From positions 1 through 24,090 of the IMG/VR virus record IMGVR_UViG_3300005527_000289: 24,090 bases of DNA, one strand, 5' to 3'. The notes under the pieces were generated by a model. The model had not been told where the DNA came from. It made no database searches and worked only from the letters and a program-made list of their open reading frames with translations. A program made the position numbers and the translations under genes. This DNA is from a virus. Of this stretch, positions 7,992 through 17,742 are shown piece by piece. Within the stretch, counting starts at the first letter, position 1; the number at the start of each line of letters is the position of its first letter.

Positions 7992-7998
7992 ATAAATA
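7992..7998 (-). promoter_or_regulatory. TATTTAT element upstream of gp13-like gene
   Basis: TATTTAT on the minus strand, 16 bases before ATG 7975, in the 39-base gap after the 8015-9175 gene. The presence of the element and the gap suggest the gp13-like gene has its own initiation signal within the operon. Confidence 0.35.
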
Positions 7999-13087: not shown

Positions 13088-14125
13088 ATGGCTTTACCAA
13101 AAAAAATAAAAAAAGACATTCCACTAACTGAACAAAAAACTCTTTTACCGAGAAGACAAGAGTTAGTAGATAAAATTAATAGAGATGGTACTTACCTTCC
13201 TAAATCAATTCTTCATGCAGATTTAGATGGTGGTATGTTAGAGTTTGTTAAGAACGATTTAAAAACTGTCGTCACTGGAAAAGTAATACCAATGATAGAT
13301 ATTTTAATTACAACTCAAAATTGGGCTCAATTCGCACAAACTTGGGATATTCAAAACATTGACAAAAATGTGGAACCCCCTTTTATTACTGTAGTTAGAG
13401 TACCCGAAGTTAAATACGGGACTAACCCATCAACCGTTTATAATATACCAAATAGAAAACAATTTTTTTACGCTCAGGTACCAACTTGGGATGGACAAAG
13501 AAACGGACTTGACATATATAAAATACCTCAACCTGTTCCCGTTGATATAACATTCCAAGTCAAAATAGTTTGTAACAGAATGAGGGAGTTAAATAAATTT
13601 AATCAAATTGTTATTGAGAAATTTGCCTCAAGACAGGCTTATACTAATATTAAAGGTCATTATATTCCTATAATAATGAACGGAATAACCGACGAATCTG
13701 TAAATGACATTGAGAAAAGAAAATATTATGTCCAAAGTTACGAATTCACAATGTTAGGATTTTTAATTGATGAAGACGAATTTGAAGTTTCTCCCGCAGT
13801 GTCAAGAGTGTTACAAGTCTTAGAGTTGGAACAAAATAAAAGTAAGAAAAGAAAAAAGGAAAATTCAAATCCTGACAATTTATCAACGGTTGCATTATTT
13901 GTGGTTGGTAATAATGTATTGAGTGAGTTATTCAATTACACCGTTGATATTAACATCGGAAATATTTCAAATGTTGAATCTTTTGATGTTTATATTAATG
14001 ACGATTATTATGGTAGTGATTTAAGTTTAATACAAATTAACACTAACGATAGGTTACGAATTGAGATAACTAAAAATGATGACACAAAAGAAGCGACGAT
14101 AGAGTTTAATAATAAATTACTTTAA
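13088..14125 (+). CDS. gp15-like tail completion / sheath stabiliser
   Basis: Protein of 345 residues with the features of the T4 gp15 group, which caps the tail tube and sheath and docks the tail to the neck. Supporting segments are VPEVKYGTNPSTVYNIPNRK, PQPVPVDITFQVKIVCNRM, LNKFNQIVIEKFASRQAYT and the late EFTMLGFLID strand, an arrangement like gp15 where prolines and a long helix precede a final beta strand. T4 gp15 is 272 residues; here residues about 243-258 are a basic linker (KNKSKKRKKENSN) leading to an extra beta-rich domain of about 85 residues (to LRIEITKNDDTKEATIEF), possibly Ig-like. The gene follows the gp14-like gene by 4 bases, so it is co-translated. Its stop (TTAA) overlaps that of a convergent small gene by 4 bases. 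The group assignment is moderate, resting on pattern and position. Confidence 0.6.
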   Translation: MALPKKIKKDIPLTEQKTLLPRRQELVDKINRDGTYLPKSILHADLDGGMLEFVKNDLKTVVTGKVIPMIDILITTQNWAQFAQTWDIQNIDKNVEPPFITVVRVPEVKYGTNPSTVYNIPNRKQFFYAQVPTWDGQRNGLDIYKIPQPVPVDITFQVKIVCNRMRELNKFNQIVIEKFASRQAYTNIKGHYIPIIMNGITDESVNDIEKRKYYVQSYEFTMLGFLIDEDEFEVSPAVSRVLQVLELEQNKSKKRKKENSNPDNLSTVALFVVGNNVLSELFNYTVDINIGNISNVESFDVYINDDYYGSDLSLIQINTNDRLRIEITKNDDTKEATIEFNNKLL

Positions 14126-14286
14126 TTTTCACCGTAGATATCTTTAGACTCCTTACATTTTTCCATTATAAGTTTCTCAATAAATCTATAAATTTTAATC
14201 CCTCGTTTCTCACAATACTTTTTTAGAGTGTCATGAGCCTCTTTTGAAATCTTTAAATTCTTTATCTCTTTACCTTCATTTTCCAT
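14122..14286 (-). CDS. Small ribbon-helix-helix-like protein, 54 aa
   Basis: Short gene read directly from the minus strand: 54 residues, start ATG at 14286, stop TAA at 14122-14124. The core, KEIKNLKISKEAHDTLKKYC then EKRGIKIYRFIEKLIMEK, fits a ribbon-helix-helix DNA-binding fold: an N-terminal strand (IKNLKIS), helix 1 (KEAHDTLKKYCEKRG) and helix 2 (IYRFIEKLIMEKC). Such proteins (Arc, MetJ, CopG types) bind DNA as dimers and repress their own or neighbouring promoters. The gene is antisense to the transcript of the gp14/gp15 unit, whose terminator lies beyond it at 14336-14360. A palindrome abuts its start codon. No Shine-Dalgarno is seen. Helix prediction is by eye; an anti-restriction or toxin-antitoxin role is not indicated, and a phage regulator is the simplest view. 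Confidence 0.65.
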   Translation of the reverse strand: MENEGKEIKNLKISKEAHDTLKKYCEKRGIKIYRFIEKLIMEKCKESKDIYGEN

Positions 14287-14287
14287 A

Positions 14288-14314
14288 GTAGAAAAAAGGC
14301 AGAATTTATTCTAC
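14288..14314. promoter_or_regulatory. Palindromic operator candidate next to RHH gene
   Basis: GTAGAA (14288-14293) and TTCTAC (14309-14314) flank a nested palindrome AGAAT-TT-ATTCT (14301-14312), one base upstream of the RHH start codon. Position and symmetry suit autoregulation by a dimeric RHH protein; unproven. Confidence 0.35.
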
Positions 14315-14321
14315 CTAATTT

Positions 14322-14328
14322 ATAAATA
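14322..14328 (-). promoter_or_regulatory. TATTTAT element upstream of RHH gene
   Basis: TATTTAT on the minus strand, 35 bases before ATG 14286. If it is a promoter element, the palindrome at 14288-14314 would lie over the initial transcribed region, a good place for repression. On the plus strand the same bases read TATAAATA. Confidence 0.3.
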
Positions 14329-14335
14329 CTTGCCA

Positions 14336-14360
14336 CAAAGTAAAGTACTTTGGTTTTTTT
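14336..14360 (+). terminator. Terminator of the gp14-gp15 unit
   Basis: CAAAGTA / TACTTTG stem (7 bp) with a 3-base loop AAG, one G, then seven T. It lies 211 bases after the gp15 stop, so the transcript reads antisense through the whole RHH gene before ending. Confidence 0.7.
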
Positions 14361-14365
14361 CAGAA

Positions 14366-14372
14366 TATTTAT
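14366..14372 (+). promoter_or_regulatory. TATTTAT element upstream of tail sheath
   Basis: AATATTTATCAATAAAAT just after the preceding terminator and 40 bases before ATG 14413. The A-rich leader (AAATAAATAAATAAAAAACC) lacks a Shine-Dalgarno. Placement directly after a terminator is what a promoter for the sheath gene would need. Confidence 0.4.
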
Positions 14373-14412
14373 CAATAAAATAAAAATAAATAAATAAAAA
14401 ACCAAAAAAATA

Positions 14413-17400
14413 ATGGCGACAAACAGTAAAGTATTCGTATCACCTGGGGTTTATACATCCGAGGTTGATTTGAGTTTTGTAGCTCAAAGTGTTGGTGTTA
14501 CTACATTAGGTGTTGTAGGTGAAACTTTAAAAGGTCCAGCTTTTGAACCTATTTTTATCACTAATTTTGATGAGTTTACAACCTATTTCGGTGGAACATC
14601 ACCTGAAAAATTTGTTAACACACAAATACCGAAATATGAAGCATCTTACATTGCTAAATCTTATTTACAACAATCTAACCAATTATTCGTTACAAGAGTG
14701 TTAGGATTATCGGGGTATGATGCGGGACCTTCTTGGTCAATATTAACTAAGGCAAATGTTGATAAATCAACAGTTGATTTCTTTTGTGAAAGTGCTACAA
14801 CTATTGATTGTGTTACAGAATGTGTTGATTATAAAACAATTGATTTTGCAATTGATTTCTCAGGTTGTACTAATAGTACAGACACTATAACATTCTTAGA
14901 CCCAACTCAAATTCCTGATGAGATATTAGTAAAATTAAATTTACCATATGAGAATTTTGATAACTCAACATCAACTTTAGATGCTGACATTAAACTTCAA
15001 ATATTTAACATTTTAAATGAACCATCAACTGAGTTGAGTTCTATTAATTATTATGGTACAATACCTTATTCAGATTATTCAGGTTTAACTGCATTTACAG
15101 GTGAAACTAATGTATTTGATGTTGACGGTGTTGATTCATTAACCGCTGATTATACGGCACCTCAAAATGATTCTTGGTATTACGCATTATTTGATAATGT
15201 TGGTTCAGGAGCATATACAGGTTATTCGTTTTGGTCAATTGTTACTGATTTAACTTTAATACCTGTAACAACAACTACAACAATAGCACCTACAACAACT
15301 ACAACAACAACTAATCCTTGTGTTACACCTGTACCTACAACAACAACTACAACAACAACTGCGGCACCTGTTAATTGTTACACGGGTACTTTAGTTGGTA
15401 GAATATATGTTTATTCAGGAACTGCTTACACTGATTATGATGATTTAGTTATTGCGACGATGCGTTCAAGAGGGCTAGCAACTTATGGTTCTAATGACAA
15501 TGGAGCGGTTTATGAAGTTTCAGGTTTGACTGATGTTGAAATGGTTTGTACAGGAGGTTATTCTGGAGTTACTAAAAACCCATTCTCAACATTTGGTTTA
15601 AATGTAACTAAAATTGATGGTGAAACTCTATTCTTTGAAACTTCATTGTCAACATCTGATTCAAAGTACTTAACTAAAGTATTTGGTAAATCTAACTTTG
15701 GTAAAGATAAAGATTCAGTACCTGTATTTGTTGAGGAAAACTTCCCTAATCTATTAGTTTACGCTTATAGAAAAGGATATATTAGAGGTTTAAATTGTGA
15801 ATTGGTTTCATTACCTGATGCTAGACAAGGTGTTGACCCAACATCAATAGCGTTCTATTTAGAAAAATATCAATCACCGACATCTCCTTGGGTTGTGTCT
15901 GAATTGAGAGGTTCTAAAGTTTATGATTTATTTAAATTTACAACTATTTCTGATGGGGACTCTGCTAACACTGAGGTTAAAATTTCAATAGCTAACATCT
16001 CATTTAATAATGGAACATTTGATGTATTGATTAGAGATTATTTTGATACTGATAATAATCCTGTTGTAATTGAAAAATTCACTAATTGTAATATGAACCC
16101 AAGTGACAACAATTATATAGCTAAAAAAATAGGAACGTCTGATGGTGAGTACCAATTGAACTCTAAATATGTTATGGTAGAACTTAATGAGGACGCCCCG
16201 ATTGATGCTTTACCTTGTGGGTTTAAAGGTTTCTCTACAAGAGAATATGCGGGGGCTCGTTCACCATTTAGTTTAATTAAAAATAAATACGACTATCCTG
16301 GTGAAGTGGTGTTTGACCCACCATTTGGTTTATCCACAGGTGCAAATGCGGTAACTACAAGTCCTGGTGATAATATTAGAAGAACTTACTTAGGTATTTC
16401 TGATACTATTGGTATTGATTCTGACATTTATTCATACAAAGGTAAACAATTACCAAATAATATATGTGACGCTGTAACAGGAGCTGATTGGGCTTATATG
16501 ACGAGAGGTTTCCATATGGATAAAAATGCTAGCGGTATTACAATACCAAATACATTTGTAACAAGTGGTACACCAGCGTTTATTTGTGGTGACGCAGAAT
16601 TTACATCGGACCCTGATAATGAATCTAATCCATATTACAGATTATTTGCTAGAAAATTCACATTATTAGCTCAAGGTGGTTTTGATGGATGGGATATATA
16701 TAGAGAATACAGAACTAATGGTGATAGATTTGTTTTAGGTAGAAGTGGATACTTGAAGGGTTCTTGTCCAACACTTAAATACCCTACGGCAACAGGATGG
16801 GGAGCATTCAAACAAATAACAGTTGGTGATAATAATGTTGATTATGCAAATACTGACTACTACGCTTACTTATTAGGTATCCAAACTTTCTCTAATCCTG
16901 AAGCGGTTAATATAAATGTATTTGTAACACCAGGAATTGACTATGTGAATAATTCTGATTTGGTTGGAAGTGCTATTGAGATGATTGAGTTTGATAGAGC
17001 GGATTCAGTTTACATCACAACAACACCTGATTACAATATGTTTACACCTTCGTTAGGTGACCCTACTGATTTAATTTACCCTCAAGAAGCGGTTGATAAT
17101 TTGGAGACGGCTGGTTTAGATTCTAACTACACGGCAACTTATTACCCTTGGATTTTGGTTAGAGATACTGTTAATAATACACAAATCTACTTACCACCAA
17201 CAGGTGAGGTAACTAAAAACTTAGCGTTGACAGATAACATCGCATTCCCTTGGTTCGCTGCGGCGGGTTACACTCGTGGTATTGTTAGTTCAATTAAGGC
17301 TCGTAAGAAGTTAACTCAAGAAGATAGAGATACTCTTTACAAAGGTAGAATTAACCCAATCGCAACTTTCTCAGATGTTGGTACAGTTATTTGGGGTAAT

Positions 17401-17742
17401 AAAACACTTCAAATCAGAGAGTCGGCATTAGATAGAATTAATGTAAGAAGATTGTTACTACAAGCTCGTAAGTTGATTTCAGCAGTTTCAGTAAGATTGT
17501 TGTTTGAACAAAACGACCAAAAAGTAAGACAAGATTTCTTAAATGCGGTGAACCCAATCTTAGATGGTATCAGAAGAGATAGAGGTCTTTACGACTTCCG
17601 TGTAACAGTATCATCAGATGCGGCTGATTTAGATAGAAACCAAATGACAGGTAAAATCTACATCAAACCAACCAAATCGTTAGAGTTTATAGATATAACA
17701 TTCTATATAACACCAACGGGGGCTTCGTTTGAGAATATCTAA
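14413..17742 (+). CDS. Tail sheath protein (gp18-like), enlarged
   Basis: Contractile tail sheath subunit. The N-terminus, SPGVYTSEVDLSFVAQSVG followed by GVVGETLKGPAF and PIFITNFDEFTTYFG, is the standard sheath opening. The C-terminus carries the conserved core: NVRRLLLQARKLISAVSVRL, LFEQNDQKVRQDFLNAVNPI and GLYDFRVTVSSDAADLDRNQ, ending in the strand IDITFYITPTGASFENI used for subunit interlocking. A middle sheath segment FDVLIRDYFDTDNNPVVIEK is also recognisable. At 1109 residues it is far longer than T4 gp18 (659). Residues about 286-317 are a poly-Thr linker (VTTTTTIAPTTTTTTT, PVPTTTTTTTTAAP) flanked by Cys, separating an N-terminal insertion rich in Asp/Thr from a following domain; these insertions should decorate the outside of the sheath. 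A single-gene unit with a terminator at each end. Confidence 0.92.
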   Translation: MATNSKVFVSPGVYTSEVDLSFVAQSVGVTTLGVVGETLKGPAFEPIFITNFDEFTTYFGGTSPEKFVNTQIPKYEASYIAKSYLQQSNQLFVTRVLGLSGYDAGPSWSILTKANVDKSTVDFFCESATTIDCVTECVDYKTIDFAIDFSGCTNSTDTITFLDPTQIPDEILVKLNLPYENFDNSTSTLDADIKLQIFNILNEPSTELSSINYYGTIPYSDYSGLTAFTGETNVFDVDGVDSLTADYTAPQNDSWYYALFDNVGSGAYTGYSFWSIVTDLTLIPVTTTTTIAPTTTTTTTNPCVTPVPTTTTTTTTAAPVNCYTGTLVGRIYVYSGTAYTDYDDLVIATMRSRGLATYGSNDNGAVYEVSGLTDVEMVCTGGYSGVTKNPFSTFGLNVTKIDGETLFFETSLSTSDSKYLTKVFGKSNFGKDKDSVPVFVEENFPNLLVYAYRKGYIRGLNCELVSLPDARQGVDPTSIAFYLEKYQSPTSPWVVSELRGSKVYDLFKFTTISDGDSANTEVKISIANISFNNGTFDVLIRDYFDTDNNPVVIEKFTNCNMNPSDNNYIAKKIGTSDGEYQLNSKYVMVELNEDAPIDALPCGFKGFSTREYAGARSPFSLIKNKYDYPGEVVFDPPFGLSTGANAVTTSPGDNIRRTYLGISDTIGIDSDIYSYKGKQLPNNICDAVTGADWAYMTRGFHMDKNASGITIPNTFVTSGTPAFICGDAEFTSDPDNESNPYYRLFARKFTLLAQGGFDGWDIYREYRTNGDRFVLGRSGYLKGSCPTLKYPTATGWGAFKQITVGDNNVDYANTDYYAYLLGIQTFSNPEAVNINVFVTPGIDYVNNSDLVGSAIEMIEFDRADSVYITTTPDYNMFTPSLGDPTDLIYPQEAVDNLETAGLDSNYTATYYPWILVRDTVNNTQIYLPPTGEVTKNLALTDNIAFPWFAAAGYTRGIVSSIKARKKLTQEDRDTLYKGRINPIATFSDVGTVIWGNKTLQIRESALDRINVRRLLLQARKLISAVSVRLLFEQNDQKVRQDFLNAVNPILDGIRRDRGLYDFRVTVSSDAADLDRNQMTGKIYIKPTKSLEFIDITFYITPTGASFENI
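15266..15363 (+). repeat. Poly-Thr linker in tail sheath gene
   Basis: Runs of ACA/ACT codons coding for TTTTT to TTTTTTTT separated by IAP, NPCVTPVP and AAP. It matches the style of the linker in the 812-1555 protein, indicating shared origin or shared function within the virion. Confidence 0.85.

Follow-up and report, generated by a model that had tools for sequence, protein, structure and literature searches.

Late gene expression in T4-type phages is generally attributed to late promoters, a late σ factor and the sliding clamp; we know of no dedicated repressors in their structural module. Arc, the small repressor of phage P22, binds promoter sites that lie about one helical turn from each other. 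A second point of reference is RelB, whose ribbon-helix-helix (RHH) dimers bind repeats lying along a single face of the DNA (PMC2812701). The locus considered here offers a compact example of regulation within a late module, and one that can be tested directly: a strongly conserved, single-copy RHH gene that lies antisense between neck and sheath genes in hundreds of environmental phage contigs, with what is probably a single operator per genome. As a by-product, TATTTAT emerges as a probable late promoter element in a large group of phages that are uncultured.

The window, that is, the whole 24,090-nucleotide stretch of viral DNA that was analysed (IMG/VR record IMGVR_UViG_3300005527_000289), contains the following features at this locus, in order of position:

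13088-14125, plus strand: gp15-like neck/tail gene, the name being based on position and synteny; converges on the RHH gene
14122-14125: TTAA common to the stop codons of the gp15-like gene (plus strand) and the RHH gene (minus strand); convergent, with no room for a terminator
14122-14286, minus strand: RHH (Arc/CopG-like) gene, 54 amino acids, MENEGKEIKNLKISKEAHDTLKKYCEKRGIKIYRFIEKLIMEKCKESKDIYGEN; assigned by conservation, predicted fold and dN/dS
14287-14293, minus strand: third heptad, TTCTACT, abutting the RHH start codon
14297-14316, minus strand: hairpin of the first two heptads, then T6, terminator-like; AGGTAGAATAAATTCTGCCT on the minus strand
14298-14304, minus strand: second heptad, TTCTGCC, the most conserved of the three
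14309-14315, minus strand: first heptad, GGTAGAA, inverted relative to the other two
14321-14328, minus strand: TATTTATA, promoter-like element of the RHH gene, the same motif as TATTTAT
14336-14360, plus strand: weak terminator-like hairpin and T7 for neck transcription
14338-14345, plus strand: AAGTAAAG box in the divergent RHH/sheath region
14366-14373, plus strand: TATTTATC, promoter-like element of the sheath gene
14413-17742, plus strand: tail sheath gene (PF17482, PF04984), divergent from the RHH gene

The 54-residue reading frame is a genuine gene, far above chance. The preliminary description of this DNA had placed an RHH gene of that length on the minus strand, and the claim is borne out: the ORF at 14122-14286 is conserved, syntenic and under purifying selection, and its product has a predicted RHH fold. 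Between the gene and its near relatives synonymous change is near saturation, with dN at 0.04-0.07 and dN/dS at about 0.02-0.03. A first scan of IMG/VR produced 45 confirmed loci, and an alignment-based scan found relatives encoded in at least 571 confirmed IMG/VR stretches. The gene lies antisense between the gp15-like and sheath genes in all 45 of the first loci and in 76 new ones, where the neighbours are on the contig, and wherever its orientation was checked it is tail-to-tail with gp15 and divergent from the sheath gene. Loci retrieved by gp15 alone constitute an independent sample, which avoids selecting on the RHH gene itself; the gene is present in 79 of these 80 loci and antisense to the neck genes in 79 of 79, just as the antisense arrangement had been proposed from the window alone. 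When all samples are pooled the gene is found at 280 of 283 loci, the three exceptions (L221, L226 and L227) amounting to two contigs from a single lineage. Each record of 100-322 kb has one confident copy and no confident paralogues.

A scan of GTDB genomes confirmed no relative of the gene, and a collection of named phages returned only weak matches (E of 1 or more). The annotations of Flavobacterium phage immuto and Microcystis phage Mel-JY01 show no RHH gene in the interval from the neck genes to the sheath gene, no such gene was recognised among the ORFs ahead of the sheath gene in LR756508, and the literature searched holds no description of a neck/sheath RHH gene of this kind. Nor is there a toxin gene next to it: at the loci examined, its neighbours are the gp15-like and sheath genes on the opposite strand. 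Neither a Pfam family above cut-off nor a PHROGs family matched the gp15-like gene. At 1109 amino acids the sheath protein is unusually long, with threonine-rich tracts in its N-terminal half, and known sheath families match it in its C-terminal part only.

The AlphaFold model of the RHH protein (mean pLDDT 79.8) consists of an extended N-terminal segment followed by helices at residues 15-28 and 32-44; the N-terminal strand is unassigned because a single chain was modelled, and the tail is of low confidence (pLDDT below 50 at residues 52-54). Foldseek puts Arc at the top (probability 1.0, TM about 0.65, 29% identity), and the leading matches are nearly all RHH proteins; none attains E 0.001, which is often the case with domains of this small size. 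A second structural aligner also returns RHH proteins, with Z about 5-6. The best PHROGs profile, matched by 23 of 24 members, is PHROG 582 ('Arc-like repressor', E 2e-5), in which the match covers only the last half of a longer profile and "repressor" is an annotation. When the 24 members are aligned, K9, N10, K12, I13 and S14 are invariant, and along the predicted DNA-contacting strand N10, K12 and S14 alternate with hydrophobic L/I11 and I13. The gene product belongs to the ribbon-helix-helix (Arc/MetJ/CopG) superfamily; the gene and its predicted fold are secure.

Where might such a protein bind? The whole heptad array occupies 14287-14315, its three members centred on 14290, 14301 and 14312, i.e., 11 bp apart, and relatives keep GGTAGAA-N4-TTCTGCC-N4-TTCTACC or close variants of it between TATTTATA and the ATG. 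When leaders are clustered at 85% identity and a heptad is taken as TTCTRCC with at most one mismatch, two or more heptads are found in 45 of the 48 clusters; 35 clusters have direct repeats and 27 have inverted repeats at a spacing of exactly 11 bp, and each other spacing occurs at most once, except for 22 bp (2 x 11) in 17 (about 0.01 expected from shuffles); the 48 clusters are not independent events, because the heptads are related by descent. The four-base spacers differ in sequence (TTTT, TTTA, TATT, TTAA) and are constant in length. A palindrome had been pointed out at 14288-14314. An inverted repeat does exist, at 14297-14316, but it is just part of the conserved heptad array, and the palindrome is rejected as the essential unit, the direct repeat being the more widely kept of the two. 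A search for it elsewhere in the genome, which the preliminary description had proposed, shows the array to be essentially restricted to the RHH gene, where it occurs once per record (in records of up to 322 kb); matches elsewhere are about as frequent as with reversed-pattern controls, and other promoters yielded no second array. A trade-off between a good left arm and the third heptad shows up as no more than a trend (odds ratio about 0.27; with leaders clustered at three levels, Fisher p is 0.14, 0.06 and 0.03, uncorrected for relatedness).

Two groups of leaders depart from this plan. L044 and L045 are a divergent RHH lineage with an apparent GTG start, in which the leader repeats AGTATG/CATACT instead of GGTAGA/TCTRCC and further CATACT-like copies lie upstream. 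In L169, L171 and L174 about 55 bp are inserted between the array and the RHH start, and a second TATTTAT lies near the start codon.

The best-supported reading, and in our judgement a somewhat probable one, is that the RHH protein is an Arc-like late autorepressor acting through the heptad array. The proposed sequence of events is as follows: 1) Minus-strand transcription of the RHH gene would begin at a promoter containing TATTTATA, an element that these phages use. 2) RHH dimers would bind two or three TTCTRCC heptads, which are spaced by one helical turn (11 bp) along the same DNA face. 3) The occupied heptads, lying directly downstream of the promoter and reaching to the start codon, would block further transcription of the RHH gene. 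Dimerisation, binding of the array by the RHH protein, repression and late timing are what we infer; by analogy with RelB, the array looks like an RHH operator, with its repeated sites on one DNA face. The position of the array, which begins immediately below the promoter element and reaches the start codon, predicts autorepression, and self-regulation is favoured over repression of another late gene because the array is essentially found only at the RHH gene. The original suggestion had been that the regulator represses a late gene or itself: the second half gains from a putative operator at the gene's own start and from its being the single site, while the first half finds no array at other promoters.

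We count in favour of autorepression the RHH fold and profile matches, the invariance of N10, K12 and S14, dN/dS, the 11-bp spacing, the near-uniqueness of the array, and a lineage without the RHH gene that also lacks the array. Counted against it are 1) the heptads of L044, which become CATACT/AGTATG while N10, K12 and S14 are unchanged, 2) the replacement of the third heptad by TTATCTT in some lineages, 3) the ability of the array to form a hairpin as well, with some compensatory changes, and 4) the fact that the sole recognisable site is the gene's own promoter, which leaves the benefit to the phage unexplained.

The third of these objections opens onto a different reading, in which the leader acts as RNA: its 5' hairpin and U-run would be an attenuator or terminator, or else a stem-loop that stabilises the message or limits its translation, with little RHH protein made. 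We regard this as rather unlikely. The 20-nt hairpin and T6 on the minus strand are called terminator-like (1 found, against 0.2 in shuffles), pairing is kept in 89.5% of cells (19 distinct sequences), and 3 of 7 pairs have changed on both sides, which 2 of 500 shuffles also reach; L044 replaces both arms together (AGTATG/CATACT). Of the 126 distinct leaders in which at least T4 follows TCTNCC, 125 have the T6, and the RHH leader is pyrimidine-rich before its ATG, unlike the A-rich leaders of other genes. All of this speaks for an RNA function, but a perfect hairpin with a T-run occurs in just 17 of the 48 leader clusters (0.3% in shuffles), and in several lineages other bases break up the T-run (TTTATT, TATTTT, TTAATT). 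The TTCTRCC degeneracy and the 11-bp spacing extend to the third repeat, outside the hairpin; and if transcription starts about 6 nt below the promoter element, the hairpin begins at about +1, which leaves little RNA for termination. No known RNA family matches 14100-14450 at E up to 1.

When would the autorepressor be made? TATTTAT, the motif of the RHH promoter-like element, is present in sense orientation in 72 and in antisense orientation in 24 of 151 upstream regions taken from the window and from four related records. Its preferred distances from the ATG are 20-24 nt and 11-12 nt, and it precedes the sheath gene, the tube gene and many others. It is present in 116 of 142 distinct RHH leaders, with TATTTGT, TATTAAT or TATTGAT in 20 more. 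In this phage group TATTTAT is likely to be a late promoter element; TATTTATA and the T4 late element TATAAATA are reverse complements of each other. Since the RHH gene carries the TATTTAT of the structural genes, its transcription probably coincides in time with theirs, rather than being early and then silenced. Examples in the window lie at 790, 12557, 14366, 17785, 18744, 20295 and 22162 on the plus strand and at 7998, 10730 and 14328 on the minus strand. The sheath promoter region that had been placed next to the RHH gene is indeed there, in the form of the promoter-like TATTTATC at 14366.

A second motif of the divergent region, the AAGTMAA box, precedes TATTTAT by about 27-28 bp at the sheath gene as well as at the tail-tube gene. 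Boxes were noted in the window at 14338-14345 and from 18717, and in the tube upstream regions of L012-L045 and L308; in the L024 group the sheath and tube boxes are both AAGTCAAG, which suggests one shared binding factor. As a target of the RHH protein the box is unsupported. In the lineage that lacks the RHH gene (L221/L226/L306 and L227/L308) the gp15-sheath order is kept, the array is gone, the sheath gene and its TATTTAT persist, and the box upstream of the sheath gene is degenerate; the tube promoter of the same contig nevertheless retains its box (AAGTAAATAG, in L308), and the AAGTMAAG box is for that reason independent of the RHH gene.

On the other side of the RHH gene, the neck genes converge upon it. 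The gp15 and RHH stop codons fall within one TTAA (offset 3) in 42 of the 79 RHH-bearing loci sampled by gp15, and the gap between the two genes is at most about 30 nt in all 79. This space is usually too small for a terminator, and an overlap of antisense RNA between neck transcription and the RHH gene is therefore likely. A terminator of the neck unit had been proposed beyond the RHH gene; a hairpin (stem CAAAGTA/TACTTTG, 14336-14352) followed by T7 is present, but it is weak and the window's own, being found in 1 of 48 leader clusters, and a conserved plus-strand neck terminator is rejected. The arrangement could serve as a switch, in which neck transcription turns the regulator off through antisense RNA or polymerase collision and so releases a late gene such as that of the sheath. 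Convergence at every RHH-bearing locus of the gp15 sample, with little or no room for a terminator, accords with such a switch, as does the placement of the sheath promoter-like element about 40 bp from that of the RHH gene. We nonetheless consider it decidedly improbable: the array sits between the RHH gene and that gene's promoter, at a distance of some 50 bp or more from the sheath element, and no counterpart of it was found at any other promoter; the RHH and structural genes have the same class of promoter element, so that all would be on together; and the sheath gene and its promoter-like element persist where the RHH gene is missing.

The C-terminal KDIYGE is near-invariant, is kept in L040 and L043 despite a 13-residue insertion after the RHH core, and ends no other ORF in the scanned records. 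These properties would suit an adaptor, a protein anchored by its DNA-binding part whose tail recruits a partner, be it the phage transcription machinery or the sliding clamp; the tail is modelled with the low confidence noted above, and we give this proposal very little credence. A composite version, in which a late autoregulator of a large uncultured T4-like clade lies tail-to-tail with the neck genes for mutual limitation and is linked by KDIYGE to the late transcription machinery, also strikes us as quite improbable.

How does the proposed autorepressor compare with its described relatives? It shares with Arc its size (54 versus 53 amino acids) and fold, and an asparagine plus a basic residue on the DNA-contacting strand. 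It differs in residing in the tail module of uncultured T4-like phages, with no immunity region seen, in carrying the additional conserved KDIYGE tail, and in the placing of its candidate sites, which comprise both direct and inverted repeats and come after the gene's own promoter element, on the downstream side. With the autorepressors of the RelB, CopG and omega type it has in common that a small RHH protein is paired with repeated short sites at its own promoter; the gene here, however, stands alone, with neither toxin partner nor operon mate, and the spacing and sequence of the sites differ from those of that group. The RHH gene of the neck/sheath interval is an addition to the known Arc/CopG regulators and not a new kind of system.
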